From Variovorax terrae (GTDB taxonomy: Bacteria; Pseudomonadota; Gammaproteobacteria; Burkholderiales; Burkholderiaceae_C): a DNA stretch of 64,000 nucleotides. The stretch's first letter is position 1. Each line of letters begins with the position of its first letter. Of this stretch, positions 6,052 to 57,465 are shown one piece after another. Where the stretch lies: assembly GCF_022809125.1 (NCBI RefSeq), contig NZ_JALGBI010000001.1, positions 930,001 through 994,000 of the forward strand, written 5' to 3'. The position numbers were made by a program, and so were the translations under genes. Under the pieces are notes generated by a model. It worked only from the letters and a program-made list of their open reading frames with translations, was not told the DNA's origin and did no database searches.

Positions 6052-6105
6052 AAATCGGGTGGATGTCCTTGTCCCCTGGTTATTTCATGCTATCGAAATA
6101 GGAGC
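6052..6105 (+). repeat. 54-bp spaced repeat, copy 1
   Basis: Blocks AAAT-N9-GTCC-N7-CTGGT-N8-GCTA-N9-GAGC at the spacing common to all eight copies. Intergenic. One of the more degenerate copies. Confidence 0.75.
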
Positions 6106-6212
6106 GGCATGCGCCGCCGCGCCGATCACCGTGCCGCCGCTCCCTCTGCCCAGGAAAGCAGCAGGCCCCGCCAGCCCAGCACCGGCGCGGGATGGCCGAC
6201 TTATCCGAGGAC

Positions 6213-6249
6213 TTATCCACAGAGTGCCCCACAGCCGCTGGGCATAAGT
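6213..6249 (+). repeat. DnaA-box-like dispersed repeat, copy 2
   Basis: TTATCCACAG (perfect DnaA-box core TTATCCACA at 6213-6221), CACAG and GGGCATAA in the same register as copy 1 at 902. An extra TTATCC lies 12 bases upstream (6201). Confidence 0.65.
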
Positions 6250-6281
6250 GCGCGAGCGTCTGCCTGCGGAAAATTGGGATG

Positions 6282-6335
6282 AAAAGGGCTCCAGGTCCTT
6301 GTCGGGCGGTTCTATCGTGCTATTGAAATGAGAGT
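6282..6335 (+). repeat. 54-bp spaced repeat, copy 2
   Basis: AAAA-N9-GTCC-N7-GCGGT-N8-GCTA-N9-GAGT. Intergenic, 47 bases after the DnaA-box-like repeat and same orientation as copy 1. Confidence 0.82.
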
Positions 6336-6414
6336 GAGCCGTGGTCAGCGGCGGCTGTGCCGGGCGCTCCCCGGGGGGCTTCTTTTCAACATCTGGATTC
6401 AAATAGGGCAACTC

Positions 6415-6459
6415 ATTGGTTGCATTTATTGAGGGATTGACGCACAATAAGCAACCAAT
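6415..6459. promoter_or_regulatory. Long dyad ATTGGTTGC/GCAACCAAT upstream of the SRPBCC-ArsR operon
   Basis: Nine-base perfect arms (6415-6423 and 6451-6459) frame 27 bases that include TTGACG. The dyad ends 31 bases before the SRPBCC start. ArsR proteins bind dyads in their own promoters, so this is a candidate operator for the ArsR encoded at 7416. Confidence 0.45.
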
Positions 6460-6490
6460 CAATTGCATTTCAACGCGACAAGGAGCCTCC

Positions 6491-7435
6491 ATGGAACACT
6501 ATCGTCAACGGCTGCTGCTATCGGCTTCCCCCGAAGCGGTCTACCAGGCCTTGGCCACACAGCAGGGCCTGCGCCGCTGGTGGACCGAAGACTGCGAGGC
6601 GGGCACCCAGGTCGGCGAGCGCGCGACCTTCCGCTTTGGCCGCCACCGCAAGGTGATGCAGATCGAGCGCCTGGTGCCCGGGCGCGAGGTGCGCTGGCAT
6701 TGCGTGGAAGCGCACCTGGAGGTGCCGGGGCTGGCGCGGCCCGATGAATGGGTGGGCACGCACATCGTGTTCAGCCTGTCGCCGCACGGCGCGGCGGGCA
6801 CGGCGCTGGACTTCGAGCACATCGGCCTCACGCCCGAACTCGGCTGCTACGGCCTGTGCCAAGAGGGATGGCAGCAATTCCTGGCCAGCCTGCAAGCCCT
6901 GATGGACACGGGGCGGGGCACGCCCTTCGTGCCGGCCGAAACCGCCTGCGGCGCCAGCAACGCCGCGGCGGCCTCCGCCGTGACCGACCGCATCGAGCGC
7001 CAGGTGCACATCCGGGCGCCGCGCTCGCGCGTGTGGCACGCGATCTCCAATGCCGAGGAGTACGGCCGCTGGTTCGGCGCCAATCTCCAGGGCCAGGTGT
7101 TCGCGCCCGGCCAGCGCGCGCGCGGGCCGATCACCATCGCCGGCTACGAGCATGTGGTGTTCGACGTGATCATCGAGCGCGTGGAGCCCGAGCAGCTCAT
7201 GGCGTTCCGCTGGCACCCTTACGCGGTGGACGCCGCCATCGACTACTCGAAGGAAGAGCGCACCCTGGTGACCTTCACCCTGCAGGACGTGGGCGAGGGC
7301 ACCTTGCTCAAGGTCGTCGAATCGGGCTTCGACAAGGTGCCGCCCGGCCGGCGCATGGAGGCCTTCCGCATGAACAGCGGCGGCTGGGAGGGGCAACTGC
7401 GCAACATCGACCGCCATGTCAGCACTGCCTCCTAG
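6491..7435 (+). CDS. SRPBCC protein with two AHSA1-like domains
   Basis: 314 residues from ATG 6491, with AGGAG five bases upstream. Two tandem START-like/AHSA1 units are visible: residues about 1-145 (RLLLSASPEAVYQAL, GLRRWWTED) and about 165-310 (QVHIRAPRSRVWHAISNAEE, YGRWFGANL, ending in VESGFDKVPPGRR). Single-domain relatives bind hydrophobic ligands or contact Hsp90; in bacteria they are very often paired with an ArsR gene, as here (20-base overlap with the next gene). The ligand is unknown. The fused tandem arrangement is less usual than a single domain. Confidence 0.85.
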   Translation: MEHYRQRLLLSASPEAVYQALATQQGLRRWWTEDCEAGTQVGERATFRFGRHRKVMQIERLVPGREVRWHCVEAHLEVPGLARPDEWVGTHIVFSLSPHGAAGTALDFEHIGLTPELGCYGLCQEGWQQFLASLQALMDTGRGTPFVPAETACGASNAAAASAVTDRIERQVHIRAPRSRVWHAISNAEEYGRWFGANLQGQVFAPGQRARGPITIAGYEHVVFDVIIERVEPEQLMAFRWHPYAVDAAIDYSKEERTLVTFTLQDVGEGTLLKVVESGFDKVPPGRRMEAFRMNSGGWEGQLRNIDRHVSTAS

Positions 7436-7781
7436 CGCGGCCAGTGCGCCGCCGCCGGGGCCGCTGGCGCCCGGCATCGCCCACGTGTTCTTCGCGCTGG
7501 GCGATCCGACGCGGCTGCGCCTGATCGCCCTGCTGTGCGCGGGCGGCGCATTCTCGATCGCGCAGCTCACCGCCACCACGCAGATCACGCGGCAGGCCGT
7601 CACCAAGCACCTTCAGGTGCTGGCCGGCGCCGGGCTGGTGCAGGACCTGAAGCTGGGGCGCGAGCGGCTGTGGCAGTTCGATCCCACGCAGCTCGACGAG
7701 GCCCGGCGTTCGCTGGAAGTCATCGGCCAGCAGTGGGAGCAGGCGCTGGGCAGGCTGAAGGCGGGGCTGGAGGAAGGGTAG
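7416..7781 (+). CDS. ArsR-family transcriptional regulator
   Basis: 121 residues. Winged helix from about residue 20: VFFALGDPTRLRLIALL, FSIAQLTATTQITRQAVTKH (recognition helix), LQVLAGAGLVQDLKLGRERL. No metal-binding cysteine pair is visible, so this belongs to the non-metal ArsR group that accompanies SRPBCC/AHSA1 proteins. It overlaps the SRPBCC gene by 20 bases and should be co-transcribed. The dyad at 6415-6459 is the likely operator. The inducer is unknown. Confidence 0.9.
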   Translation: MSALPPSAASAPPPGPLAPGIAHVFFALGDPTRLRLIALLCAGGAFSIAQLTATTQITRQAVTKHLQVLAGAGLVQDLKLGRERLWQFDPTQLDEARRSLEVIGQQWEQALGRLKAGLEEG

Positions 7782-7823
7782 CGGCCCAATATCAGGCCGA
7801 TGCATGAGGCGGCGCGGCGAGGC

Positions 7824-8147
7824 TCAGAGCGGCCCGGGCAGCGCCTTCAAGCCCAGCCAGGCCGCGCCGATGACCGCGTTGACCGGCACGCTGAGCGCGC
7901 TGGGCACGTAGAACAGCGCGGAAAGCCCGGGCGCGTTCAGCATCAGCTCGACAAAGCTGCCCAGGCCGTAGAGCAGCAGGCCGCAACCCAGCCAGCGCCG
8001 CATGTAGGTGAGCAGCCAGCGCGCCTGGCCCTGGTTGAAGCGCCAGGCCGCCGACCGTTCGAACATGTTGCCCCGGCTGGCGTCCCGGAACAGCCAGCCG
8101 AAAAAGAAATAGCGGTACAAAAGGGTGCTGAAGTCGAGGTCTTGCAC
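7824..8147 (-). CDS. Small membrane protein of unknown function
   Basis: 107 residues if the GTG at 8147 is used (VQDLDFSTLLYRYFFFGWLF); the frame remains open to a GTG at 8249, which would add 34 non-hydrophobic residues. Two membrane segments are likely: RRWLGCGLLLYGLGSFVELM and a C-terminal SVPVNAVIGAAWLGL. Between them and the N-terminus is the charged stretch RDASRGNMFERSAAWRFNQG. I recognise no family. It is convergent with the ArsR gene. Codon use matches its neighbours, so it is probably a real gene. Confidence 0.6.
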   Translation of the reverse strand: MQDLDFSTLLYRYFFFGWLFRDASRGNMFERSAAWRFNQGQARWLLTYMRRWLGCGLLLYGLGSFVELMLNAPGLSALFYVPSALSVPVNAVIGAAWLGLKALPGPL

Positions 8148-8293
8148 GATGGCGCACTGGGGAAGGCCGAACGTGCACAGTGTCTCCCAATTCCCCGCGG
8201 GGCGTGCGCCGGTTCGCCGCAGACCCTGAGTCGCGAAGCGGCTTCGCACAGGCGCGCCTCAAGCCCCGGGGCTGGGCCAAAGTGGTTTACGCT

Positions 8294-8929
8294 TTACCGA
8301 TGGGACGCCGGCGTCTCACCGGGCCAGGGATCGGCCCAGGCCGGAATCTGCATCAGCCCGTCGAGCCAGCGCACGATCTGGGGGAACTCCTTCAGCGGCA
8401 TCTCCGATTCGCGCCAGTAGCAGGCCATCGAGGCAAGCTGGAAGTCGGCGATGGTGAGCCTGCCGCAGGCCACGTGCTCGCGGCCCGCCAGATGGCCGTC
8501 CAGCACTTTGGCGTAGCGCACGACATCCGCCACCTTCGGCGGCAGCGAGGCGCTGTCGGGCGGCCCCAGCCCGAAGGTCGGCTTGACGACATGCTGGAAA
8601 TAGAAGGGCGAGACCGCGGGCCCCCAGTGGCAGTCGTTCCAGGACAGCCAGCGCAGCACCTCGACCTGCTCGGCCGGATGGTGCGCCGGCCACATGTCCG
8701 AGCCTGCCTGGATGCACAGATGGGCCATGATGGCCGAGGACTCCCACAGCACCAGGTCGCCATCCACCAGCGTGGGCGCCTTCATGTTGGGGTTGAGCGC
8801 CACGTAGTCCGGCGTCTTGAGCCCGCCGGCCATCAGGTCGGGCTGCACGAACTCGGCCTGCAGGCCGAGATGCTTCACCAGTGCCAGCACCCGCCGCGGC
8901 GCCTGCGCCTTGATCCAGTAGATCTTCAT
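8294..8929 (-). CDS. Glutathione S-transferase family protein
   Basis: 211 residues. N-terminal thioredoxin-like domain (MKIYWIKAQAPRRVLALVKH, NPNMKAPTLVDGDLVLWESS, the ES pair contacting glutathione) and an all-helical C-terminal domain (VACGRLTIADFQLAS, the N-capping/hydrophobic-staple motif). It would conjugate or reduce substrates with glutathione in the cytoplasm. The active-site position near residue 8 carries no Cys. The substrate is unknown. The gene stands alone between two minus-strand genes. Confidence 0.88.
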   Translation of the reverse strand: MKIYWIKAQAPRRVLALVKHLGLQAEFVQPDLMAGGLKTPDYVALNPNMKAPTLVDGDLVLWESSAIMAHLCIQAGSDMWPAHHPAEQVEVLRWLSWNDCHWGPAVSPFYFQHVVKPTFGLGPPDSASLPPKVADVVRYAKVLDGHLAGREHVACGRLTIADFQLASMACYWRESEMPLKEFPQIVRWLDGLMQIPAWADPWPGETPASHR

Positions 8930-9021
8930 ATCGATTCTCCTGAGAGGTGGTTGTCACATGGATATGACGAACGAAAGGGCGGGAAATCGACAAACGGGCA
9001 TCCTGTTTTGCGCCCCGCCGC

Positions 9022-9825: not shown

Positions 9826-9909
9826 GGGACCCCCTGATCGTTGAGAAGCACCAAGAATAGCGCAGGCGGTCCGTTTTGCCAGGGTCGGGCGCCCCCCCGC
9901 ACGGGCGCC

Positions 9910-11691
<1,782 letters not shown>

Positions 11692-11827
11692 CCTCCGATT
11701 CTAGAGGGCGGGGCCGGGATGTTACGTCTGGCAACGGCTTTCACTGTGCATGCGGTATTCGAACCGGCGGCTGGCGCGTTTAATGGACACAAGGGCGCTG
11801 CTGGCGCCTTCCCAACAGGAGCATTCC

Positions 11828-12205: not shown

Positions 12206-12255
12206 GGGCTTGCCCTCCCCTGCCTGACCGGGGCGGCGCAGTCGTTGCCGCTCAT

Positions 12256-12450
12256 TCAGCCAAAAATGGTTTCTGAAAAAACAGCCCGCAGGCGTGAGCC
12301 TGCGGGCTGAAGCCACTGGTCGCGGGCGGAGGCCGGAACCAGCGTCACTCCCGGCGAAGGAGGGGTCCGCGGGAAAGTGAGCGGGGGTTGGCAGCCGCCG
12401 AGGCTGCCTGGAATCTGCATCTGCTGGGGGTTTTGCGCTGCCGGCGCCAT
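12256..12450 (-). CDS. Possible small protein, 64 residues, doubtful
   Basis: An ATG at 12450 is preceded by a near-perfect Shine-Dalgarno sequence (GAGGAGGAG, six bases away). The product is Pro/Gln-rich (MAPAAQNPQQMQIPGSLGG...) with no recognised domain. The last third of the frame runs through the terminator hairpin at 12283-12308, and the stop lies beyond it, so a terminated mRNA would lack the stop codon. It may therefore be a small RNA, an untranslated leader, or an unusual small gene. Confidence 0.3.
   Translation of the reverse strand: MAPAAQNPQQMQIPGSLGGCQPPLTFPRTPPSPGVTLVPASARDQWLQPAGSRLRAVFSETIFG
12276..12308 (-). terminator. Rho-independent terminator (minus strand)
   Basis: AGCCCGCAGGC, four-base loop, GCCTGCGGGCT (12283-12308), followed on the minus strand by six T residues (12277-12282). 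This is an 11-base-pair perfect stem. Confidence 0.75.
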
Positions 12451-13439: not shown

Positions 13440-14255
13440 CTACATCGGCCGGAACAGGTGGGCGTAGAGCCGGCTCACGGCCAGCTTCTCGGGGCGGCCG
13501 TGCAGCGTGAGGCTGAGCTTGCCCTGGTCGTCGCGCAGCACGCTGTCGATGGCGCTGGTGCGCACCACGGTGCCGCGGTGGACCTGCCAGAAGGCGTTGG
13601 GGTCGAGCTGGGGCAGCAATTCCTTGAGGGGCGTGCGGATCAGGTACTCGTGGCCGGCGGTGAGCACGCGCACGTATTTGTCGGCGGCCTCGAAGAACAC
13701 CACCTCGTCCACCGGCACCATGCGGATGCTGCTGCCCACGCTGACTTGCACCATGCGCAGCGGCCCGCCGGTCGGCGCGGCGGGCTGCCCGGCCTCCAGC
13801 AGATGCCGCAACTGCTTCATGGTGTGGCCCAGGGTTGCTTCCATATCGATAGCATCCGGAGACCGCCGGGCCAGGACTTCCCGCACTTTTGACACGGTTT
13901 TTTGGAGACGGGCGGCCTGCACGGGCTTGAGCACGTAGTCCACGGCCTGGGCCTCGAAGGCCTGCACGGCGTACTGGTCGTAGGCGGTCACGAACACCAG
14001 GGCCGGGAAGGGCGTGCCGGGCGCCCAGGCGTCGGCCAGCTCGGCGGCGGCCTCCAGCCCGCTCAGGCCGGGCATGCGGATGTCGAAGAACAGCACGTCG
14101 GGCTTGAGCGCCAGGCTTTGCGCCACGGCCGAGGCGCCGTCGCCCACGGTGGCGGCGATGGCCAGCTCGGGCCAGGCGCGCGCCAGTTCGGCGCGCAGGG
14201 CCTGCGCCAGCAGCGGTTCGTCTTCGGCCAGCAGGGCGGTCGGGGTCGGGTTCAT
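13440..14255 (-). CDS. LytTR-type response regulator
   Basis: 271 residues. Receiver domain 1-125 with acidic pair E11-D12, phosphoacceptor D58 (DVLFFDIRMPGLSGLEAA), T90 and K110 (VDYVLKP). LytTR DNA-binding domain about 165-268 (VDEVVFFEAADKYVRVLTAG, YLIRTPLKELLPQL, FWQVHRGTVV). The linker, residues about 122-139, is encoded by a sense copy of the 54-bp repeat (13837-13890). It overlaps its sensor kinase gene by four bases, the last pair of a nine-gene minus-strand operon. Targets are unknown; by family it would activate genes through a direct-repeat site. Confidence 0.93.
   Translation of the reverse strand: MNPTPTALLAEDEPLLAQALRAELARAWPELAIAATVGDGASAVAQSLALKPDVLFFDIRMPGLSGLEAAAELADAWAPGTPFPALVFVTAYDQYAVQAFEAQAVDYVLKPVQAARLQKTVSKVREVLARRSPDAIDMEATLGHTMKQLRHLLEAGQPAAPTGGPLRMVQVSVGSSIRMVPVDEVVFFEAADKYVRVLTAGHEYLIRTPLKELLPQLDPNAFWQVHRGTVVRTSAIDSVLRDDQGKLSLTLHGRPEKLAVSRLYAHLFRPM
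13837..13890 (-). repeat. 54-bp spaced repeat, copy 3 (inside response regulator)
   Basis: AAAA-N9-GTCC-N7-GCGGT-N8-GCTA-N9-AAGC on the minus strand, in sense orientation within the linker between the receiver and LytTR domains. Confidence 0.82.
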
Positions 14256-15325
14256 GTTTTGGCAGGAAAAGTGAGGAGGGTCCGCGTCCCGCCGTCATCG
14301 GGTGCTATGAATTCCATAGTGGCCGAGGGGCCGTAGGCGGCGGCCAGGCGTTCGCGCACCTGGGTCTGGCCGAAGCCGCTGCCGCCGGACGGCCGCTCGC
14401 CGCCGGGGCCGACGCCGGTGTCGGCCACTTCGAGCTGCAGCCAGGCGCCCTGGCGCCGCGCGCGCACCGTGACGCTGCCGCCTTCCACCTTGGGCTCCAG
14501 CCCGTGCTTGATGCTGTTTTCCACCAGCGGCTGCAACAGCAGCGTGGGCACGGGCTGCGCGGCCAGCTCGGGCGGCAGATCCAGCGTGTAGCGCAGGCGC
14601 GGGCCCATGCGCACCGAGATCAGTTCCAGGTAGTCGCGCAGCCGCTCGAACTCGGCGGCCAGTGGGTGCTCGGCGGTGCGCGAGGCGCCGAGCGTGGCGC
14701 GCAGGTAGGCGATCATGCGGTCCAGCATGTCCAGGGCGGCGGCCGGGTCGGTGGCGATCAGGGCGCGCAGGTTGGCCAGGGTGTTGAACAGCATGTGCGG
14801 TTCGAGCTGGGTTTCCAGCAGCTTGAGCCGCGCCTCGGTGGCCTGGCGCTCGGCCTCCTGCATCTTGCCGTGCAGGTAGCTGCTGCGGCCCTGGGTGTAG
14901 AAGTAGTAGCAGACGGCCACGCCGGCCAGCAGCGAGAAGACCCAGGTGGTGCGCAGCTGGGCCGGCGACTGGTCCCAGGACGACCAGCCGAACCAGGCGT
15001 CGGCCGCCGCCGTGCCGGCCAGGAAGCCGCCCACGATGCCGAAGGCGGTGAGCACCATGCCGGACAGGCCGCTGGGCCAGCCGCTTTCGGCGCTGGGGGC
15101 GATCAGGTGGCGGCCGAAGTCGATGATGGCCCAGGAGACCGTGCCGATGCACAGCGAATAGACCATCGGCACCTCGTAGGGCTTGTCGGGCGAGGAGGTG
15201 AAGTACAGCACGGCCGAGATCGCCAGGCTGAAGGCCAGCGTCTGCAGGTAGTGCCTGAACATGTCCAGGCTGTCGAGGCGGATGGCCCGCAGGGCGGCGG
15301 GCAGGGGCGTGATGGCGTTGCGCAT
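14252..15325 (-). CDS. LytS-family sensor histidine kinase
   Basis: 357 residues. About four membrane segments up to residue 145 (FSLAISAVLYF, YSLCIGTVSWAIIDF, GMVLTAFGIVGGFLAGTAA, WVFSLLAGVAVCYYFY), then a coiled stretch and the His_kinase domain with phospho-acceptor H177 in ETQLEPHMLFNTLANLRAL. ATPase N-box LVENSIKHGLEPK and G-box DTGVGPGGERPSGGSGFGQT follow. It lacks an obvious periplasmic ligand domain, so the signal may be sensed in the membrane. The C-terminal residues about 336-353 are encoded by an antisense copy of the 54-bp repeat. Partner of the LytTR regulator downstream. Confidence 0.93.
   Translation of the reverse strand: MRNAITPLPAALRAIRLDSLDMFRHYLQTLAFSLAISAVLYFTSSPDKPYEVPMVYSLCIGTVSWAIIDFGRHLIAPSAESGWPSGLSGMVLTAFGIVGGFLAGTAAADAWFGWSSWDQSPAQLRTTWVFSLLAGVAVCYYFYTQGRSSYLHGKMQEAERQATEARLKLLETQLEPHMLFNTLANLRALIATDPAAALDMLDRMIAYLRATLGASRTAEHPLAAEFERLRDYLELISVRMGPRLRYTLDLPPELAAQPVPTLLLQPLVENSIKHGLEPKVEGGSVTVRARRQGAWLQLEVADTGVGPGGERPSGGSGFGQTQVRERLAAAYGPSATMEFIAPDDGGTRTLLTFPAKT
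14267..14320 (+). repeat. 54-bp spaced repeat, copy 4 (end of kinase gene)
   Basis: AAAA-N9-GTCC-N7-GCCGT-N8-GCTA-N9-TAGT on the plus strand, antisense to the kinase gene and spanning its last codons. Confidence 0.8.
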
Positions 15326-16717: not shown

Positions 16718-16722
16718 GGGTG

Positions 16723-18738: not shown

Positions 18739-19038
18739 TTACCAGGGATCGCGCTGGTGGGCCAGGCGCGCGCGTTCCTGCTGCAGCAGCCGCTCGTGCA
18801 GGCCGCCGCCGGGCAGGGCCAGGAACACGACGACCCCATGGATCAGCAGGCCCAGGCCCCAGCCCAGGGCCGGGAAGATCGCCCAGTGGCGCCCGCTGGC
18901 GAGCGAGAGCGCGGTGAGCAGCGTGTTGACTGCTATGAAAACAAGAGCATGGATGTACCAGCCCATGCGGACCCCGGCACGTTTTCGGGCCAAACGCTCG
19001 ATCTCGTCGGCGTTCAGGCGGGCAGTGGTGGACATCAT
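18739..19038 (-). CDS. 2TM domain protein (second paralogue)
   Basis: 99 residues from ATG 19038 (or the next codon). Same architecture as the 15346-15651 product: NADEIERLARKRAGVRMGWY, helices YIHALVFIAVNTLLTALSLA and FPALGWGLGLLIHGVVVFL, and a basic tail LHERLLQQERARLAHQRD. The codons for VFIAVN contain the right half of the 54-bp repeat (GCTA-N9-GAGC at 18932-18948). It lies 19 bases before the second hydrolase gene. Two 2TM genes in one operon with duplicated hydrolases suggest an old segmental duplication. Confidence 0.85.
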   Translation of the reverse strand: MMSTTARLNADEIERLARKRAGVRMGWYIHALVFIAVNTLLTALSLASGRHWAIFPALGWGLGLLIHGVVVFLALPGGGLHERLLQQERARLAHQRDPW

Positions 19039-26035: not shown

Positions 26036-28639
26036 TCATTTTCTTGCCAGTTTCTTCAAGGCGTACAGCGCGTCGAGGGCCTCGCGGGGGCTCAGCGCAT
26101 CGGGGTCCACGGCTGCCAGTGCCGATTCTACGGCGCTGGGGGCCTGGGCCTCTGCCGCCGGGGGCGGGGCGAACAGGTCGACCTGGGCACGTGCCTCGGT
26201 CTGCTGGGTTTCCAGCGCCTCCAGCGCATGGCGCGCGTGGTTGACCACGGCCGCGGGCATGCCCGCGAGCCGGGCCACCTGGATGCCGTAGCTGCGGCTG
26301 GCGGGGCCGGCCTGGATCTCGTGCAGGAACACGATGTCGGCGCCCGATTCGGCGGCGCTCACGTGCACGTTCATGGCGGCGCGATGTTTGGCCGGAAACT
26401 CGGTGAGCTCGAAGTAGTGGGTCGCGAACAGCGTGAAGGCCTGCGTGCGGTCGTGCAACTGGGCGGCGATGCCGCTGGCCAGCGCCAGGCCGTCGAAGGT
26501 GGAGGTGCCGCGGCCGATCTCGTCCATCAGCACCAGGCTTTGCGGCGTGGCGCTGTGCAGGATCTGCGCGGCCTCGGTCATCTCCAGCATGAAGGTGGAC
26601 TGGGCGTTGGCCAGGTCGTCGGCCGCGCCGATGCGGGTGTGGATGGCGTCGATGGGCCCGAGCCGGCAGGCGCTGGCCGGCACCCAGGAGCCGATGCTGG
26701 CCAGCAGCACGATGATGGCCACCTGGCGCATGTAGGTGGACTTGCCGCCCATGTTGGGGCCGGTGATGACCTGCATGCGCTGGCGCGCGCCCAGCGTGGT
26801 GTCGTTGGCGATGAAGCTGCCGCCCGAGGTCTCGGCCAGCCGCGCCTCCACCACCGGGTGGCGGCCGCGCACGATCTCGATGCAGGGCTCGCGCGTGAAC
26901 TGCGGCGCGCACCACTGGAGCGTGAGCGAGCGCTCGGCCAGCGCGCACAGCACGTCCAGCGCGGCCAGCGCCTGCGCCAGCCGCGTGAGCGCGGGCACGA
27001 AGGGCTGGAGCTGGTCCAGCACCTGCTCGTAGAGCCATTTCTCGCGCGCCAGCGCGCGCTCCTGCGCGCTCAGGGCCTTGTCCTCGAAGGCCTTGAGCTC
27101 GGGCGTGATGTAGCGCTCGGCGTTCTTGAGGGTCTGGCGGCGGCGGTAGTCGTCGGGCACGCGGTCCACCGCGCCATGGGTGACCTCGATGTAGAAGCCG
27201 TGCACCTTGTTGTACTGCACGCGCAGGTTGGGGATGCCGGTGCGTGCACGCTCGCGCGTCTCCAGCGCCAGCAGGAAGCCGTCGCAGTTGTCCTGGATGG
27301 CGCGCAGCTCGTCGAGCTCGGCGTCGAAGCCGGTGGCGATCACGCCGCCGTCGCGCACCAGCGCGGCGGGCTCCTCGAGGATCGCGCGGCTCAGCAGGCC
27401 GGCGCAGCCCGCGGGCGGCTGCAATTCCTGGAAAATCTGGCTCAAAAGTGCCGAAGGTCCGCATGGGGTGGACCTCAGTTGCTCTGATTTTTGTAGCGTG
27501 AGCTGCAGCGCCACGAGTTCGCGCGGGCGCACCTGGCGCAGCGCGATGCGCGCGGTGATGCGCTCCACGTCGCTCACGCCCTTGAGCTGCTCGCGCAGCT
27601 TCTGCCAGCCGCTGTCGCGCAGCGCGGCGATGGCGTCGAGCCGCTGCAGCGCCTGGGCGCGCTCGCGCCGGGGCTCCAGCAGCCAGCGCTTGAGCAGGCG
27701 GCTGCCCATGCCGGTCATGCAGGTGTCGAGCAGCGAGAACAGGGTGGGCGCGTCCTCGCCGCGCAGCGTCTGCGTGAGCTCGAGGTTGCGCCGGGTGGTG
27801 AGCGGCAGGTCGATCAGCTCGTCGTCGCGCTGCACCCGGATGCCCTGCAGGTGCGACAGCGCGCGGCCCTGCGTGTGCTCGGCGTAGCCCAGCAGCGCGG
27901 CGGCGGCGGCCTGCGCGTGGGGCAATGCCTCGGCGTTCCAGGCGGCGAGGCTGGCGGCCTGGAGCTGCTCCAGCAGCTTGCGCTGGCCCAGTGCGGCATC
28001 GAACTGCCACTCGGGGCGCAGCGTGAGCGACAGCGCGGCGCCGCCGCCTGCGCCGCGCACGGCCTTGAGGCGCTGCTCGAAGGCCGGCGTCACGCCCGCG
28101 CCGTACAGCAGCTCGCTCGGGGCGATGCGCGCGATCCAGGTCTCGACCTCGTCGGCCGCGCATTCGGCCAGGTGCAGCTCGCTTTGCGTCACGCTGAGCC
28201 AGGCCAGGCCGCAGGCGTTGCGCGGCCCCTGGTGCACGGCCAGCAGGATGGCCTCGGCCTTGTCGCTGAGCAGCTCGCTGTCGGTCAGGGTGCCGGGCGT
28301 GACCACGCGCACCACCTTGCGCTCCACCGGGCCCTTGGCGGTGGCCACGTCGCCCACCTGCTCGCAGATCGCGGCCGATTCGCCGAGCCGGATCAGCCGC
28401 GCCAGGTAGTTTTCCAGCGCATGGAAGGGCACGCCCGCCATCACCACCGGCTCGCCGGCCGACTGGCCGCGCCGCGTGAGCGTGATGTCGAGCAGGCGCG
28501 CGGCCTTCTCGGCGTCGGCGAAGAACACCTCGTAGAAATCGCCCATGCGGTAGAACACCAGCGTCTCGGGGTACTCCGCCTTGATGGCGAGGTACTGCTG
28601 CATCATCGGCGTATGGGGCGGCGTGTCGTTGTGGTTCAT
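26036..28639 (-). CDS. mutS: DNA mismatch repair protein MutS
   Basis: 867 residues. Begins with the mismatch-binding domain ([40 protein letters not shown] with the Phe-x-Glu wedge) and ends with the ABC-type ATPase: Walker [18 protein letters not shown] near residue 626, Walker [17 protein letters not shown]. It detects mismatches and recruits MutL. Residues about 381-398 ([18 protein letters not shown]), in the core/lever region, are encoded by an antisense copy of the 54-bp repeat, an apparent in-frame insert. The gene heads a run of three (mutS last in transcription after FUSC and MscS genes). Confidence 0.97.
27444..27497 (+). repeat. 54-bp spaced repeat, copy 5 (inside mutS)
   Basis: AAAA-N9-GTCC-N7-GTGGA-N8-GCTC-N9-TAGC on the plus strand, antisense to mutS and read through in frame. 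Confidence 0.78.
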
Positions 28640-34625: not shown

Positions 34626-34633
34626 CCAAAAAA

Positions 34634-34687
34634 GCTATTATTTTTGTAGCATCAAACGACCGCGGGGCCTGGACCTCGCGGTGTTTT
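34634..34687 (-). repeat. 54-bp spaced repeat, copy 6 (between cysE and fecR-like gene)
   Basis: AAAA-N9-GTCC-N7-GCGGT-N8-GCTA-N9-TAGC on the minus strand. This is the copy closest to consensus. It fills nearly all of the 67-base gap between the two convergent genes. Confidence 0.85.
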
Positions 34688-34692
34688 GAGGC

Positions 34693-36105
34693 TCAATTGA
34701 GGCGCTGCAGCGGGCTTGCGACATCGAACACCGTGGTGCCCCAGTTGCCCGGCAGCTGGAAGCGGTAGGTTTCGCTGGGCCGGCTCTGGCCGCTGGCGTT
34801 GACCAGCCGGAACCGCACGTAGTACACGGTCGAAGCGTCCAGCGTGCCCAGGTTCCACAGCGGCGTGGTCAGCGTGTCCTGGCGCACCCTGCGCGTGAAC
34901 GCCGCGTCCAGAGCCAGTTCGGCCTCGATTTTGGTGAACACGGCGTCCGGCGCCACGCCGAAGTTCAGCAGCGTGTCGCCGTTGAGGGCCCGGATGCCGG
35001 TGTTGCCGACCGGCCAGCGGCCGTCCCGGACTGCGATCAGCTTGACGGCGTCGAAGCCTTCCAGGCCCTGGCCGTCGATGCCGCGCACGCGCGCATACCA
35101 GTCGCCAGGCGTCAGGCCGGCGAGTTCCACGCCGGGGCCGGCGGCCTTGAGGTCGCGCACGATCTTGTCGAATTTCGCGTCGCTGGCCACCTGCACGCGA
35201 AAGGACGAAGCGCCTTCCAGGCTCGGCAGCGGCCACAGTCCCTGCGGCAGCTGTACCTCGGCCGGCACGCCGGCGAGGTCGGGCGCCCGCAGCAGCTGCA
35301 CCACGTTCACGGCCTTCTGCGCGGGGTTGATCACGGCGCCGGTGCCCTGCGGCAGGTCGGCGCCGCTTTGCTGGGCCGGGTTGTCGGCGCGCACCAGGCC
35401 TTCGGTCACCTCGGTGCGGGCCAGGCGCTCGGCGGAGTTGTCGTAGGCCACGCGGAATTCGGTGCCGCGCACGCCCACCAGCGAGGTCGGCGTCTCGACC
35501 TGCAGCGGCGCGGCGCGGCGGGCGACCTTGGACGCCAGGGTCTCGATGGCGCCCTGCGACAGGCGGATCAGCCCCGAAAACCAGTTGCTGGAGCCGCTGG
35601 CCGACGCATCGCGCAGCGCGTAGTCGCGGCTGGTCACCACCTCGGCCAGCGTGTTGGGCAGCAGTTTCACGCGCGAGCCGTCGTGCAGTTCGACCACGGC
35701 CGAGCTGTTGGCGCCGACCTGCAGGCGGCTGCCTTCGCCGATCGCGCTGCCGGTGGCGGCTGCGCTGCCCCCGAGCTGCACGTCGCCCTCGGCGCTGACC
35801 AGCGTGCCGGCGGCCGGAGCCGAGCGCAGCAGGCGCAGCGGAATCTCCAGGCGCTGGCCCGGCTTGATGAAGTTGGGGTCCTTCATCTTGTTGAAGCGGG
35901 CCACCTCGTTCCAGTCGCTGGGCCGGTGGAGCATTTCGCGCGCCAGCACGATGAGCTTGTCGGAAGGCCGGACGGTGTAGGGCAGGCTCGGTTCGGCGGC
36001 CCAGGCGGCGCTGCCGGATGCTATCAAAATTGCAGCTAACAATGACCGTGGGATGCGGACTCCGGGTCGGTTGATCTCTGAATTGAGGGGGCTCCAGCAG
36101 TTCAT
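34693..36105 (-). CDS. Exported LysM-FecR domain protein
   Basis: 470 residues from ATG 36105. The signal peptide (RSLLAAILIASGSAAWA) is largely encoded by a sense copy of the 54-bp repeat. LysM domain about 44-95 (YTVRPSDKLIVLAREML, WNEVARFNKMKDPNFIKPGQ). FecR domain about 100-235 (SRLQVGANSSAVVELHDGSR, VETPTSLVGVRGTEFRVAYD). The C-terminal half has fibronectin-like repeats (FRVQVASDAKFDKIV, GDWYARVRGIDGQGLEGFD). It probably binds peptidoglycan in the periplasm. In Burkholderiales such proteins often sit next to CHASE2 or kinase genes; here it follows mogA by 16 bases. Confidence 0.88.
   Translation of the reverse strand: MNCWSPLNSEINRPGVRIPRSLLAAILIASGSAAWAAEPSLPYTVRPSDKLIVLAREMLHRPSDWNEVARFNKMKDPNFIKPGQRLEIPLRLLRSAPAAGTLVSAEGDVQLGGSAAATGSAIGEGSRLQVGANSSAVVELHDGSRVKLLPNTLAEVVTSRDYALRDASASGSSNWFSGLIRLSQGAIETLASKVARRAAPLQVETPTSLVGVRGTEFRVAYDNSAERLARTEVTEGLVRADNPAQQSGADLPQGTGAVINPAQKAVNVVQLLRAPDLAGVPAEVQLPQGLWPLPSLEGASSFRVQVASDAKFDKIVRDLKAAGPGVELAGLTPGDWYARVRGIDGQGLEGFDAVKLIAVRDGRWPVGNTGIRALNGDTLLNFGVAPDAVFTKIEAELALDAAFTRRVRQDTLTTPLWNLGTLDASTVYYVRFRLVNASGQSRPSETYRFQLPGNWGTTVFDVASPLQRLN
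36020..36073 (-). repeat. 54-bp spaced repeat, copy 7 (in signal peptide of FecR-like gene)
   Basis: CAAC-N9-GTCC-N7-ACGGT-N8-GCTG-N9-TAGC on the minus strand, sense to the gene, covering residues about 11-28. Confidence 0.75.
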
Positions 36106-36121
36106 GTGGTGTTCCTGGGGG

Positions 36122-36712
36122 TCAGGGGGGAGGGCGAAGGGCGGATTTGGGTCGGAAGGCCTTGCACACCGCCGGATGGGTTTCCATGTAGGGGCCACCG
36201 ATCAGGTCGATGCAATAGGGCACGGCTGCGAAAATGCCGGCCACGAGGACGTCTCCCTGATCGCTTTTTAAGCCCTCCAGGGTCTCCTGGATCGATTTGG
36301 GCTGGCCGGGGAGGTTGATGATGAGACTTCTGTCACGGATGACGGCGCATTGGCGCGACAGAATCGCCGTCGGCACGAAGCGCAGGCTGATTTGCCGCAT
36401 CTGCTCGCCGAAGCCCGGCATCTCCTTGTGCGCCACGGCCAGCGTGGCCTCGGGCGTGACGTCGCGCAGCGCCGGGCCGGTGCCGCCGGTGGTCAGCACC
36501 AGCGAGCAGCCGGCGTCCACCAGCTCGACCAGGGTGGCGCTGATGACGGCCTGCTCGTCGGGGATCAGCCGCGCCTCGAAGCTGAGCGGGTTCTGCAGGG
36601 CGCGCGCGAGCCAGTCCTGCAGCGCGGGCAGGCCCTTGTCCTCGTAGACGCCGCTGGAGGCGCGGTCGCTCACCGAGACGATGCCGATCTTTACCGGGTC
36701 GAAGCCGCTCAT
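36122..36712 (-). CDS. mogA: Molybdopterin adenylyltransferase
   Basis: 196 residues from ATG 36712. MoCF-type fold: VKIGIVSVSDRASSGVYEDK, CSLVLTTGGTGPALRDVTPE (the TTGGTG motif) and SLIINLPGQPKSIQETL. It adenylylates molybdopterin before molybdenum insertion. It overlaps the yjgA gene by four bases and precedes the FecR-like gene by 16, so it belongs to a yjgA-mogA-fecR-like transcription unit. Length matches E. coli MogA. Confidence 0.95.
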   Translation of the reverse strand: MSGFDPVKIGIVSVSDRASSGVYEDKGLPALQDWLARALQNPLSFEARLIPDEQAVISATLVELVDAGCSLVLTTGGTGPALRDVTPEATLAVAHKEMPGFGEQMRQISLRFVPTAILSRQCAVIRDRSLIINLPGQPKSIQETLEGLKSDQGDVLVAGIFAAVPYCIDLIGGPYMETHPAVCKAFRPKSALRPPP

Positions 36713-43959: not shown

Positions 43960-44026
43960 GGATTTCAGGGAAAGAGGCCGGCAGCGCTGATGCATCAAGC
44001 GCTGACTGCTATGTTTTCAGGAGTTG

Positions 44027-50294: not shown

Positions 50295-50304
50295 GGCAGG
50301 TCCC

Positions 50305-51755: not shown

Positions 51756-51790
51756 GGCAGGTTCCTGGTGGGTGCGTTGAAGCGGAGGGG

Positions 51791-53152: not shown

Positions 53153-53166
53153 GGGGGTACTCCTGG

Positions 53167-54600
53167 TTAAGCGGTGGCGATGGTGCGTGTGGTGAGGTAG
53201 GGCTCGATGCCCTGCAGGCCGTTTTCGCGGCCGATGCCGCTGTCCAGCACGCCGCCGAACGGGGTTTCGGGCTGCATCAGCGCGACGGTGTTGAGGGCGA
53301 CGGCGCCGGCACGGACTTCTTCGCCGATGCGGCGCGCGCTGTGCAGGTCCTGCGTGAAGCCGAAGGCGGCCAGCCCGACGGGCAGGCTGTTGGCCAGGCC
53401 GATGGCCTCGTCCAGGGTGTCGAACGGCGCCACCGGCACCAGCGGGCCGAAGGGCTCTTCCTGCATGATGCGCGCGTGCGCCGGCACCTCGGCCAGCACG
53501 GTGGGCGCATAGAAGAAGCCCAGGCCCGGCCCCGGCTCGCCGCCGCAGACCAGGCGCGCGCCCTGCGCGCGGGCGTCGTCCACCAGGGCCCGCACGGCGC
53601 GCACGCGGCGCTCGCTGGCCAGCGGCCCCATGGTGGTGGCCGCGTCGCGCCCGTCGCCCATGCGGGTGGCGCGCGCGACGCTGGCGAACGCTGCGACGAA
53701 GGCCTCGTAGCGGCTGCGGTGCACGAAGAAGCGCGACGGGTTGGCGCAGATCTGCCCGGCGTTGCGCAGCTTGATCTGGACCAGCGTCTGGACGGCGGCC
53801 AGCGGGTCGGCATCGGCGCAGACGATCACGGGCGCATGGCCGCCGAGCTCGAGCGTCACCGGCTTGAGGTGCTGGCCCGCCAGTGCGGCGATCTGCCGCC
53901 CCACGGCCTGCGAGCCCGTGAACGAAACCTTGCGGATCGTGGGCGATGCGATCAGTGCGGACGAGACCTCGGCGGGCACGCCCAGCAGCAACTGCACCGC
54001 GTTGGCGGGCACGCCCGCCTCCACCAGGCAGCGCACCAGCCCGGACACCGCCAGCGGCGTTTCCTCGGCCGGCTTGAGCACCACCGAGCAGCCGGCGGCC
54101 AGCGCCGCCCCGAGCTTGCTGGCCGACAGCATGACCGGGAAGTTCCACGGCGTGAAGGCCGCCACCGGTCCGATCGGCTGGCGCAGCGTGTGGAACCGCG
54201 TCGTCGGCCAGCGCGACGGAATGGTGTGCCCGTAGCAGCGGCGCCCTTCTTCGGCAAACCACTCCAGCATCTGGGCGGCCTGTTCGATTTCACGGCCCGA
54301 TTCGGCCAGCGGCTTGCCTTGTTCCAGCGTGAGCTGCAGGCCCAGCAGGGGCGCGCGTTCGCGCAGCAGCGCGGCCGCCTTGCGCAGGCAGGCCGAGCGG
54401 TCCAGGGCCGTCAGCGCGCTCCAGCGCGAGAAACCGTCCTGGGCGGCTGACAGCGCCTCGTCGATATCCTGCGGGTGCGCGGCCGCATAGGTGGCCAGCA
54501 CTTCGCCGTTGGCCGGGTTGGTAACATGCAGCGAAGCCGCACCGCGGCCCTCTCGCCAGCGGCCAGCGATGTACTGCTGGGGGGTGGAATAGCTAGACAT
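53167..54600 (-). CDS. NAD(P)-dependent semialdehyde dehydrogenase
   Basis: 477 residues. VAAFTPWNFPVMLSASKLGA, VSFTGSQAVGRQIAALAGQH, VTLELGGHAPVIVCADADPL (general-base Glu) and NAGQICANPSRFFVH (catalytic Cys). Pattern close to succinate-semialdehyde dehydrogenases. It is the first gene of the amine-catabolic operon (14 bases before the aminotransferase start) and is divergent from the MarR gene. The start codon overlaps the first of two ATGAATCCGA direct repeats. Confidence 0.92.
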   Translation of the reverse strand: MSSYSTPQQYIAGRWREGRGAASLHVTNPANGEVLATYAAAHPQDIDEALSAAQDGFSRWSALTALDRSACLRKAAALLRERAPLLGLQLTLEQGKPLAESGREIEQAAQMLEWFAEEGRRCYGHTIPSRWPTTRFHTLRQPIGPVAAFTPWNFPVMLSASKLGAALAAGCSVVLKPAEETPLAVSGLVRCLVEAGVPANAVQLLLGVPAEVSSALIASPTIRKVSFTGSQAVGRQIAALAGQHLKPVTLELGGHAPVIVCADADPLAAVQTLVQIKLRNAGQICANPSRFFVHRSRYEAFVAAFASVARATRMGDGRDAATTMGPLASERRVRAVRALVDDARAQGARLVCGGEPGPGLGFFYAPTVLAEVPAHARIMQEEPFGPLVPVAPFDTLDEAIGLANSLPVGLAAFGFTQDLHSARRIGEEVRAGAVALNTVALMQPETPFGGVLDSGIGRENGLQGIEPYLTTRTIATA

Positions 54601-54622
54601 GAATCCGAGTGTATGAATCCGA
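54599..54622. promoter_or_regulatory. Direct repeat ATGAATCCGA x2 between ALDH and MarR genes
   Basis: ATGAATCCGA occurs at 54599-54608 and 54613-54622, 14 bases apart. The first copy overlaps the ALDH start codon. A candidate operator for the MarR protein, though MarR sites are usually inverted repeats. Confidence 0.35.
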
Positions 54623-54735
54623 CCCCTAATGGAAAAAATCCACTATCCCGGGGACTTACCCCTAGGCGCGGCGAGGCCGCGGAGGCGCGGCGTCCGCGCC
54701 TGACCACCTGGGCGCACAGGCCGGTCGAGATCTCG

Positions 54736-55290
54736 ATGCCGCCCAATCTGGCGCATCCTTCATCGATCTTTGACTTGCTGAACTTCCGCGTGTCGGAGTT
54801 CTATGGCGTGAGCGGCTCGCTGGTGACGCGCCTGTGCGAAGGCGAGTTCGGCGTGACCCGCGAGGAGTGGGGCTTCATCGCGATGCTGGCGGCCCTCGGC
54901 CCGCTGTCTCCGTCCGACCTCGCGGCCTGGACCTCGGTCGACCGCTCGCAGGGCTCGCGCACGCTGCGGGGCCTGCTGGACAAGAAGCTCATCTTCCGCC
55001 GCCGCGTGGCGGGCGACGGGCGAAGGGTGAAGGTGGTGCTGTCGGCGGCGGGCCGCGAGTTGTACCGGCATGGGTTCCCGCAGGTCGTGAAGATCCACCG
55101 GGCCATGCTCTCGACCCTGAACGAAGAGGAGATCGCCACCCTGGCGCGCTGCCTGCGCAAGATGCAGGAGGCTGCGACCGTGGTCTACGGCTCGGACCTG
55201 GTGGGGGCGCAGGCCGACCGGCGGCATGGCGGCAGCCGCAGCACCTGGGTGGAGGGCCGGTTTGACGCCCGGGACGATCCGGGCGCTTGA
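54736..55290 (+). CDS. MarR-family transcriptional regulator
   Basis: 184 residues from ATG 54736; an in-frame ATG at 54613 would add 41 residues without family similarity. Winged helix: LCEGEFGVTREEWGFIAMLA, GPLSPSDLAAWTSVDRSQGS, RTLRGLLDKKLIFRRRVAGD, GRRVKVVLSAAGRELY. MarR proteins repress or activate catabolic genes and respond to aromatic or carboxylate ligands. It is divergent from the ALDH-aminotransferase-TctABC-deacetylase operon and is its probable regulator. Confidence 0.85.
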   Translation: MPPNLAHPSSIFDLLNFRVSEFYGVSGSLVTRLCEGEFGVTREEWGFIAMLAALGPLSPSDLAAWTSVDRSQGSRTLRGLLDKKLIFRRRVAGDGRRVKVVLSAAGRELYRHGFPQVVKIHRAMLSTLNEEEIATLARCLRKMQEAATVVYGSDLVGAQADRRHGGSRSTWVEGRFDARDDPGA

Positions 55291-55306
55291 ACCGGCGAAG
55301 GCGTGG

Positions 55307-55756
55307 TCAGCCGTTTGCCAAGGCGTGCTTGACGGCGGCCGACACCTGGCCCATGTCGGCCTTGCCGGCTAGGCGCGCCTTGACGGCGCCCATCACCTTG
55401 CCCATGTCGCCCGGGCCCTTGGCGCCGAGCTCGGCCACGATGGCCTGGACTTCGGCCGCCACTTCTTCGGCCGACAGCCGCGCCGGCAGGTAGGCCTGCA
55501 GGACGACGATCTCGGCGGCTTCCTTGTCGGCCAGGTCCTGCCGGGCCGCTTTCTCAAACGCCTCGACGCTGTCCTTGCGCTGCTTGATGAGCTTGTCCAC
55601 GATGGCGATGACCATGGCGTCGTCCAGCGTCACACGCTCGTCGACTTCCTTCTGCTTCATCGCGGCCGTCAGCAGGCGGATGGTGCCCAGGCGCTCCGCG
55701 TCCTTGGCGCGCATGGCGGCTTTCATATCGTCGGTGATCTGGTCTTTGAGGGACAT
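55307..55756 (-). CDS. GatB/YqeY domain protein
   Basis: 149 residues. YqeY fold: SLKDQITDDMKAAMRAKDAE, RLGTIRLLTAAMKQKEVDER, KQRKDSVEAFEKAARQDLAD, LQAYLPARLSAEEVAAEVQA, LGAKGPGDMGKVMGAVKARL. The domain is shared with the tRNA-binding tail of GatB; the stand-alone protein's role is not settled. In many Burkholderiales the order is rpsU, yqeY-like, dnaG, rpoD; here the next gene is the convergent MarR gene, so dnaG and rpoD are not adjacent. Confidence 0.93.
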   Translation of the reverse strand: MSLKDQITDDMKAAMRAKDAERLGTIRLLTAAMKQKEVDERVTLDDAMVIAIVDKLIKQRKDSVEAFEKAARQDLADKEAAEIVVLQAYLPARLSAEEVAAEVQAIVAELGAKGPGDMGKVMGAVKARLAGKADMGQVSAAVKHALANG

Positions 55757-55779
55757 GGCGTTCTCCGCTGAAAAGGCAT

Positions 55780-55820
55780 GGAAAAAAAGAAAACCCGCGC
55801 CTGGCGTCCCGAGCGCGGGT
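55780..55820 (-). terminator. Rho-independent terminator after rpsU
   Basis: ACCCGCGC/GCGCGGGT (55793-55800 with 55813-55820), followed on the minus strand by TTTTCTTTTTTT. It lies between rpsU and the yqeY-like gene and should give partial or full termination. Confidence 0.8.
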
Positions 55821-55844
55821 TCTTGAGGGCCGAGGCCGTCGCGA

Positions 55845-56057
55845 TCAGTACAGCTTCTTGGGCAGCTGCATGCTGCGCACGCGCTTGTAGTGGCGCTTGA
55901 CGGCGGCGGCCTTCTTGCGCTTGCGCTCGGCGGTGGGCTTCTCGTAGAACTCGCGGGCGCGCAGTTCGGTCAGCAGGCCCAGCTTCTCGATGGTGCGCTT
56001 GAAGCGGCGCAGTGCCACGTCAAAGGGCTCGTTCTCTTTTACACGGATGGTGGTCAT
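55845..56057 (-). CDS. rpsU: 30S ribosomal protein S21
   Basis: 70 residues: [60 protein letters not shown]. Needed for base-pairing of the ribosome with mRNA leaders at initiation. The start codon lies inside a perfect palindrome CATTACGTAATG (56055-56066), which may allow regulation or be coincidence. A strong terminator follows the gene, so yqeY may be mostly expressed separately. Confidence 0.97.
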
Positions 56058-56223
56058 TACGTAATGATTTCAATAATGTGCCAGGGGAAGATCGGGCCCC
56101 GGGCGGGGTTCCCCAACAAAATGTTGATCAGGCCGTTGGGGTTTGCCAGCAAAGCCCTAGATTATAGCCCTTTGGCGGTCCTGGGCAAGTACGGGTCCGG
56201 TCGATGCGGGAGGCTGTGGCGGC

Positions 56224-57465
56224 TCAGGACGGCGCGAGCCGGGCCGCCAGCGCCTGCGCGCAGGCGTAGCCGCTGGCCCAGGCCCACTGGAAGTTGTAGC
56301 CGCCAAGCCAGCCGGTCACATCGACCACCTCGCCGATGAAGTACAGGCCGGGCTGTTTGGACTCCATCGTCTGGGATGACAGGTCGCGCGTGTCCACACC
56401 GCCGGCCGTGACCTCGGCCTTCTTGTAGCCCTCGGTGCCGGTGGGCGTGAGCTTCCAGCGCGCGAGCCGTTCGGCCAGCCCGCCCAGCGCCTTGTCGCTG
56501 GCCTCGTTGACGGGGCGCTGCCAGGCGGCGTCCTGCTGCACCCAGGCGTCGGCCAGGCGGCCGGGCACGAGGGCTGCGAGTTCGTTGGCGATCAGCTTGC
56601 GTGAGCTGGCCTTGGCGCGCGCCAGGGTGGCCGGCAGGTCGGCGTCGGGTGCGAGGTTCAGGCGGATCGGCTGGCCGTCGCGCCAGTAGCTCGAGATCTG
56701 CAGCACGGCCGGGCCGCTCAGTCCGCGGTGGGTGAACAGCAGGTCTTCGTGGAAGGCGCCGCGTGCCTTCTTGGCGCCGGTTTCGATCTGCACCGGCAGC
56801 GCCAGGCCGGCCAACTGGGCGTAGGGCGCCCAGGCGGCGCCGTCGAAGGTGAGCGGCACCAGCGCCGGGCGCGGCTCGACCAGCCGCAGGCCGAACTGGC
56901 AGGCGATGCGGTAGCCGAAATCGGTGGCGCCGATCTTGGGAATCGACAGGCCGCCGGTGGCGATGACCACGCTGGAGGCCGTGACGACGCCCTCGCTGCT
57001 ATCGATTTCATAGCTACCAATGACCGCCCCACCTGGACCCTGGGCCGAAAAGCGTATGTTTTTGACGCTACAGGGCTGCCAGCGGACCACGCCGCCGGCC
57101 TCGCACTCGCGCAGCAGCATCTGGATCAGGTCGTCGGCCGAACGGTCGGCGAACAGCTGGCCCTTGTGCTTCTCGTGAAAGGGGATGCCGTGGCGCTGCA
57201 CCAGCGCGATGAAGTCCTGCGGTGTGTAGCGGCTGAGTGCGCTGCGGCAGAAGTGCGGGTTCTCGCCCAGGAAATGCTTGTGCGGCGCGGCGGGGTCGAG
57301 GTCGCGGTTGGTGAAGTTGGCGCGCCCGCCGCCGGAGATGCGGATCTTCTCGGCCACTTTCTCGCTGTGGTCGATCAGCAGCACCTTGAGCCCGAGCTGG
57401 CCGGCCACGCCGGCGCAGAACAGGCCGGCCGCGCCCGCGCCCACGATGGCGACGTCGACTTGCAT
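56224..57465 (-). CDS. HI0933/YhiN-family NAD(P)/FAD-dependent flavoprotein
   Basis: 413 residues from ATG 57465. FAD motif VDVAIVGAGAAGLFCAGVAG (3-22), then SEKVAEKIRISGGGRANFTN, RYTPQDFIALVQRHGIPFHE, VVIATGGLSIPKIGATDFGY and the C-terminal AEVTAGGVDTRDLSSQTMES, LYFIGEVVDVTGWLGGYNFQ, WAWASGYACA. Members may be BaiN-like reductases; the substrate is unknown. Residues about 139-156 (SAQGPGGAVIGSYEIDSS) come from a sense copy of the 54-bp repeat, lying between two conserved segments. Confidence 0.92.
   Translation of the reverse strand: MQVDVAIVGAGAAGLFCAGVAGQLGLKVLLIDHSEKVAEKIRISGGGRANFTNRDLDPAAPHKHFLGENPHFCRSALSRYTPQDFIALVQRHGIPFHEKHKGQLFADRSADDLIQMLLRECEAGGVVRWQPCSVKNIRFSAQGPGGAVIGSYEIDSSEGVVTASSVVIATGGLSIPKIGATDFGYRIACQFGLRLVEPRPALVPLTFDGAAWAPYAQLAGLALPVQIETGAKKARGAFHEDLLFTHRGLSGPAVLQISSYWRDGQPIRLNLAPDADLPATLARAKASSRKLIANELAALVPGRLADAWVQQDAAWQRPVNEASDKALGGLAERLARWKLTPTGTEGYKKAEVTAGGVDTRDLSSQTMESKQPGLYFIGEVVDVTGWLGGYNFQWAWASGYACAQALAARLAPS
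56998..57051 (-). repeat. 54-bp spaced repeat, copy 8 (inside flavoprotein gene)
   Basis: TTTT-N9-GTCC-N7-GCGGT-N8-GCTA-N9-TAGC on the minus strand, sense to the gene, in a different frame from copies 3 and 7. Confidence 0.82.

Follow-up and report, generated by a model that had tools for sequence, protein, structure and literature searches.

A dispersed ~70-bp element of Variovorax terrae, overlaid on genes and gene ends in genus-specific dialects, is a candidate self-DNA tag in the Comamonadaceae

Sequence tags that act at DNA uptake are said to be known only in the Neisseriaceae and the Pasteurellaceae (PMC12616744). The DNA uptake sequence (DUS) of the former comprises eight dialects, lies at permissive intragenic and terminator-linked positions and reaches 1900 copies in the 2.2-2.3 Mb genome of Neisseria meningitidis (PMC3630211). 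The uptake signal sequence (USS) of the latter combines a core with spaced AT tracts at fixed spacing, in two dialects and with terminator-linked copies (PMC12616744). A same-species preference in natural transformation, as in the Neisseriaceae, has been reported for the Comamonadaceae: transformants of Acidovorax temperans were seen only with DNA of the same species, and in Verminephrobacter eiseniae the loss of transformation levelled off at about tenfold up to a 1500-fold excess of foreign DNA, from which the authors infer selective binding; the excerpts of that paper considered here do not name a sequence (PMC4212676). Tong et al. 2017 listed two pairs as potential novel motifs, GCTTAT(N)5AAGCG in Acidovorax ebreus TPSY (114 copies) and ATAGCT(N)22CAAAAG in Polaromonas naphthalenivorans CJ2 (125 copies) (PMC5217627). 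Among the papers listed by searches of open-access literature, none was seen to report an uptake sequence in the Comamonadaceae. Here we describe an element that recurs in a 64-kb stretch of the Variovorax terrae genome (positions 930001-994000 of contig NZ_JALGBI010000001.1, here C1; hereafter the window) and across the 4.93-Mb, five-contig assembly. We put the probability that it is a self-DNA tag, acting like a DNA uptake sequence, at roughly 60%.

The original prediction, made from the letters of the window alone, described eight copies of a 54-bp element with fixed internal spacing. All eight were found at the positions and on the strands given and with identical block spacing, and none of the eight departs from GTCC, GCT or the AG within the last block (Table 1). 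The block core is real; the 54 bp, however, are only the core of a longer unit. Taking GTCC as position 0, conserved information extends from about -24 to +45, so that the full unit is about 70 bp long. Its left part carries A/T tracts at -24 to -20 and -13 to -10 and a CGGCC-like stretch that leads into GTCC. This is followed by a partly free middle closing in [CT]GGTC and then by GCTAT-N7-[AG]TAGC. The block given as AAAA has these letters in 5/8 copies, the others reading AAAT (6052), CAAC (36020) and TTTT (56998), and across the genome this block takes the form of an A/T tract, in either polarity. A sequence-only covariance model built from 86 copies (R1) recovered the eight copies in the window together with a ninth, at 18928-18994 on the minus strand. 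An element had indeed been sensed here, at 18932, but as a right-half remnant; it is a degenerate copy of full length. A second supposed remnant, at 44008, gave no match with R1 at E 0.01. As had been noted, the copies are AT-richer than their surroundings, with 51.4% GC compared with 69.7% for the window.

The expectation of hundreds of copies per genome was borne out. A loose pattern, GTCC-N8-CGGT-N8-GCTA, was searched genome-wide with the reversed pattern as a control. It occurs 201 times, 109 on the plus and 92 on the minus strand; the control occurs 3 times. A 72-column weight matrix, iterated on 864 kb (C1:1-400000, C1:1200001-1600000 and the window) and trained on these same copies, scored 109 places there above 14 bits and 106 above 20 bits, while two order-3 shuffles contained no place above 10 bits. 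Applied to two non-carrier genomes (200 kb each) and to three shuffles, the same iterative procedure found nothing. One copy per about 8 kb in the 864 kb extrapolates to some 600 copies, on both strands, in the whole genome. Neither a lack of genome-wide excess nor a confinement of the copies to the window, the two outcomes that the original prediction had set against itself, was seen on checking. Its argument that rigid distances with free spacers do not reflect recent duplication also stands, and a site recognised by a protein is the best class of explanation. The strongest dependencies between alignment columns are between adjacent ones: A/T tracts read AA or TT, with AT or TA steps scarce in most tracts of the element, and positions 4-5 after GTCC are AG, GC or TT in 88/103 copies (mutual information 1.12 bits). 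This dependence between neighbouring columns suggests readout of the shape of double-stranded DNA.

Genes were called with a simple purpose-written script, and the context counts exclude copies below 24-30 bits. Among 103 copies, 41 lie in genes, 51 are intergenic and 11 lie over gene ends, compared with 82% in genes and 12% intergenic for random positions. The 62 copies not inside genes are found between co-oriented genes in 39 cases and between convergent genes in 20. Only three lie between divergent genes, where 15% would be expected for random non-genic positions, and on this ground we rejected a promoter or operator. Flanking gene 3' ends fall within -30 to +40 bp of the copy in 55/79 cases, and copies outside genes score higher than those within (64.8 versus 55.8 bits, p=0.0006). 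For in-gene copies the strand of the element is unrelated to that of the host gene (22 same, 19 opposite). A coding peptide motif was rejected in view of the use of both strands and several phases and of the rare codons.

In-gene copies preserve the reading frame and the protein. Aligned with the best-matching solved MutS, the MutS encoded in the window shows gaps of only 2-3 residues through the element. The overlay shows in the codons: GC content at third codon positions is 0.569 within elements and 0.934 elsewhere in the same genes, and ATA accounts for 20/56 isoleucine codons inside elements compared with 78/10,469 in all called genes, so that elements hold roughly one in four of all the ATA codons. 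In dxr no gap was seen over the element in 30/30 genomes; the motif GCTMT-N7-RTAGC is kept there in 18/25 carriers, with seven carriers lacking it at this place, and in 0/5 non-carriers. An insertion element was rejected for the in-gene copies, as alignments with relatives and non-carriers show no 70-nt gap. These copies were written over native codons by substitution, not by insertion. Other host genes encode PriA, AnmK, a short-chain dehydrogenase, ComEC, an Asp/Glu racemase, DXP reductoisomerase and a MIP-family channel. A UvrD-type helicase gene carries three copies and the adjacent PD-(D/E)XK nuclease gene another, giving four, one of them weak (27.8 bits), for the pair at C1:1592061-1597900 (locus L089). 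One copy each is present in comEC, priA and mutS, and these counts for recombination genes come without an enrichment control.

Dialects of the element differ between related genera. We searched 200-kb samples from four other genera, seeding the search from the V. terrae weight matrix, and recovered 19, 23, 38 and 28 copies; the sampled stretches had been chosen with at least one known match (several in genome G312), so that densities there are inflated. The left arm and the right palindrome are constant across the five genera, whereas the middle block is genus-specific. It reads GTCC..GTC..GCGGTCAT in V. terrae, AGTCCAGG..GGGCGGCCAC in G222, AGTCAGCGCCAA..TGG in G054, AGCCC.TG..TGCGC in G312 and CTGCAGCGCCCG..GCGC in G071, and is palindromic in some dialects. 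The exact V. terrae pattern, with its 201 copies at home, occurs six times or fewer in any other of 149 genomes. Among species of a single genus, R1 scores were alike in two genera (g48, g72) and varied in two others (g71, g155).

The positions of the element are shared across these dialects. We counted 26 orthologous pairs, excluding pairs whose BLAST hit does not span the element. In 17 of the 19 in-gene pairs, which involve 12 V. terrae copies, the relative carries an element of its own dialect at the same place and on the same strand. The offset is at most 2 in 15 of these 17, it is 7 in one, and it is unmeasurable at the centre in the last. Among the remaining orthologous pairs, which are not in-gene, an element in the relative's own dialect is found at the same place and on the same strand in 3/7. 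At the two in-gene positions where the relative has no copy, no long indel was seen.

The distribution of the element is restricted to one clade. R1 matches 44/399 genomes of the V. terrae family (taken here in the GTDB sense), and a pan-dialect model built from 98 copies of five genera (R2) matches 144/399, in 65/141 genera; in these searches the best 12 candidates per genome were scored for the family and the best 21 for the class, which caps the number of matches per genome. In a class-level sample of 229 genomes R2 matches two, both of them in the V. terrae family. A pan-dialect pattern run against 84,980 species genomes returned 44 stretches. Those with named genera come from Acidovorax, Paracidovorax, Polaromonas, Giesbergeria, Curvibacter, Xenophilus, Rhodoferax and Simplicispira, all of which we take to be Comamonadaceae, and the others carry the label Comamonadaceae or Burkholderiales, apart from five stretches, which come from four vaguely labelled bins. 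Viral contigs gave no match to the pan-dialect pattern, in a scan made without a host-matched denominator.

Table 1 Copies of the element in the 64-kb window. Positions are those of the window; R1 is the covariance model built from 86 copies.
Copy	Position	Strand	Position in original prediction	Context	Detection
1	6039..6110	+	6052	Intergenic	Weight matrix; R1, E=2e-12
2	6269..6340	+	6282	Intergenic, 230 bp from copy 1	Weight matrix; R1
3	13832..13903	-	13837	Within LytTR response-regulator gene (13440-14255 -)	Weight matrix; R1
4	14254..14325	+	14267	Over 3' end of histidine-kinase gene (14252-15325 -)	Weight matrix; R1
5	27431..27502	+	27444	Within mutS (26036-28639 -), on MutS domain III	Weight matrix; R1
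6	34629..34700	-	34634	Between convergent gene ends	Weight matrix; R1
7	36015..36086	-	36020	In 5' part of LysM/FecR open reading frame 34693-36198 if the upstream start is used, otherwise intergenic	Weight matrix; R1
8	56993..57064	-	56998	Within gene for HI0933-like FAD protein (56224-57465 -)	Weight matrix; R1
9	18927..18998	-		Within 5' part of 2TM-domain gene (18739-19038 -); degenerate, full length	Weight matrix, 40 bits; R1, E=4.9e-5

Compared with described systems, the element resembles the DUS in its many copies, both genic and intergenic, and in having dialects around a constant part (PMC3630211). It differs in being made of some 70 bp of spaced blocks rather than about 10-13 contiguous bp, it belongs to another family, and no resemblance in sequence was noted. 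With the USS it shares a core with AT tracts, fixed spacing and dialects. The USS is shorter, however, at up to 32 bp (PMC12616744), and denser, with about 1300 copies in Haemophilus influenzae (PMC5217627). The string GCGGTCA, in the middle of the V. terrae dialect, also occurs in the Apl-type extended USS (PMC12616744); the other four dialects lack it in their consensus, so that the likeness is perhaps due to chance. Like the element, the pairs listed by Tong et al. show a preference for gene ends and convergent gene pairs (PMC5217627). Among our 44 pan-dialect loci, GCTTAT(N)5AAGCG lies within the middle block of the element in 3/3 occurrences, as judged by eye, and ATAGCT(N)22CAAAAG has no hit. 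These pairs are fragments from single genomes, and the excerpts of that paper do not describe a function, dialects, an overlay on genes or a family-wide unit (PMC5217627). The repeat BRE is likewise dispersed in Comamonadaceae and sometimes within genes, but it is about 90 bp long, GC-rich (69% in Bordetella) and often in tandem, with 1-29 copies per genome (PMC3110155); we rejected it by its description only, as the element is shorter, has 51.4% GC and is dispersed.

The overlay on coding sequence, the dialects in relatives and the candidacy as an uptake signal had been missed in the original prediction. Old fixed positions that are rewritten in place, genus dialects, copies on either strand and a tolerance for coding sequence together fit a tag whose transmission depends on a reader that changes. 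We infer a receptor, an uptake preference and a drive that would work as follows. A DNA receptor at the cell surface or in the periplasm, for which a type IV minor pilin is the likeliest candidate, would prefer tagged double-stranded DNA, and DNA of kin that carries the tag would be imported and then enter the chromosome by recombination. An allele would be over-transmitted when its match to the receptor is better, and this biased copying could build and maintain tags at permissive sites such as gene ends and linkers within genes. If the specificity of the receptor then shifted, tags would be rewritten in place, which would yield genus dialects at old positions. The V. terrae genome encodes comEC, dprA and pilM of the transformation machinery.

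The main rival to an uptake tag is a site for a protein that organises chromosomal DNA. The element would be bound by a nucleoid-associated protein, a gyrase or topoisomerase, an SMC loader or a partition factor that requires its sites to be spread out, with the dialects tracking that protein. A long double-stranded motif, A/T tracts of either polarity and the dependence between neighbouring columns all suit readout of shape by such a protein, and there is no clear strand bias (109 versus 92). The copies are also fairly evenly spread: the coefficient of variation of the gaps in the two 400-kb blocks is 0.91 and 0.74, compared with 0.97 for random placement, and falls below the 5% bound (0.80) only in the second block. 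Genus-wise rewriting of the middle block at fixed in-gene positions would, however, be unusual for a housekeeping protein, and 255/399 family genomes have no match. We regard an architectural site as unlikely, and as the most credible of the alternatives.

Less probable still is a mobile element, either of the repetitive extragenic palindromic (REP/REPIN) type, moved by a Y1 transposase (REP-associated tyrosine transposase, RAYT), or another miniature mobile element (MITE). Like REP/REPIN sequences, the element is short, partly palindromic and present in hundreds of copies that are often intergenic and close to gene ends, and its right palindrome resembles a REP foot. The V. terrae genome has one Y1_Tnp gene. 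Three pairs of copies are arranged in inverted orientation about 630 bp apart (C1:83565/84192, 1239457/1240090 and 1623534/1624165), and the only pair inspected, at locus L003, flanks long-inverted-repeat DNA with no evident transposase reading frame. In two of these pairs, the first and the second, the right ends are changed to AGGAGTTCTTT. In genome G015 twenty Y1_Tnp matches were seen, some with identical scores, which suggests a multi-copy IS200-like element. Unlike REP/REPIN sequences with their RAYT, in-gene copies are overlaid on codons, and the codons they occupy are the same in other genera; the two in-gene positions that are free of a copy in the relative, with no long indel, speak in the same direction. 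Moreover, no copy lies in the 3.3-kb locus around the V. terrae Y1_Tnp gene, where the matrix scores -2.5 at best, and a Y1_Tnp hit is missing from 6/43 carriers, of which five have the maximal 12 element matches where the best 12 were scored. Mobilisation by a RAYT is contradicted for in-gene copies.

A folded RNA, or a terminator or other regulatory RNA element, is very improbable. It is suggested by the GCTAT/ATAGC arms, by the palindromic middle block of some dialects and by the nearness of copies to gene 3' ends. Paired cells amount to 72%, compared with 33-45% when partners are slid by 1-3 columns, a difference also expected from conserved arms alone. One of five measures is slightly above the shuffles: pairs changed on both sides number 8 against 6.8, a value reached by 13/500 shuffles. 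Complementary letters are in some excess at the long-range column pairs -12/+15 and -11/+15 (67 versus 52 expected and 71 versus 56 expected), with mutual information of only 0.17-0.18. However, the share of paired cells is no higher than in shuffled columns, 454/500 column shuffles reaching it, and the covariation score is reached by 437/500. The RNAalifold consensus fold has an energy of -0.49 kcal/mol and no compensatory pair, an Rfam search of the window gave no match, and in-gene copies occur in both orientations relative to the host gene. The folded RNA or DNA unit that had been offered as an alternative to a protein-binding site is not borne out by these data; some intergenic copies may have a secondary role as terminators. 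A recombination or repair signal (Chi-like, or a hot spot of gene conversion) is as improbable: homologous recombination could also drive rewriting in place, and the UvrD-helicase/PD-(D/E)XK pair, comEC, priA and mutS all carry copies, but known Chi sites are short and strand-biased, and a 70-bp motif with no clear strand bias does not fit.

Several observations weigh against the reading of the element as an uptake tag. Its length is far above that of the DUS (~13 bp) or the USS, and at one copy per about 8 kb it is about 7 times sparser than the DUS of N. meningitidis. ComEC does not separate carriers from non-carriers (86/89 versus 144/151, p=0.75), and one strong carrier, G042, scored as 100% complete, has no ComEC hit. 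Y1_Tnp was found in 37/43 carriers and 51/77 non-carriers among 120 family genomes (p=0.019, uncorrected for relatedness), as would be expected of a mobile element, although six of the carriers lack a hit. Host genes are not significantly more often conserved in relatives (11/38 versus 93/500, p=0.14; length-matched P=0.11), and third codon positions are no better fit to the motif (p=0.32). Finally, the longest stretch seen to be free of the element, C1:1-40603 (GC 0.62), carries metabolic and transport genes and is not phage, as judged from 10 scanned of its 21 longer proteins.

Going beyond the uptake function itself, we lean slightly towards a wider proposal, namely that the Comamonadaceae have a third, independently evolved form of self-DNA recognition. 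Its tag would be a modular sequence of about 70 bp, read largely through DNA shape, in which a left arm with A-tracts and a right palindrome stay constant around a middle specific to the genus. Biased uptake and recombination would be strong enough to rewrite codons in essential genes, time and again in the same places, as the dialect changes. The system would underlie the selective transformation of Verminephrobacter and Acidovorax and form a genetic barrier between genera.

If the element is an uptake tag, it would add a third such system, this one in a large family of environmental bacteria, with at least five dialects and a tag that exceeds those described several-fold in length. It would show how uptake-tag systems arise and how they shift receptor specificity, and it would be a candidate for the missing signal behind the selective transformation measured in Comamonadaceae. 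Even with another protein as its reader, the element affects codon statistics, the ratio of non-synonymous to synonymous substitution rates (dN/dS) and the annotation of genes and terminators across many genera.

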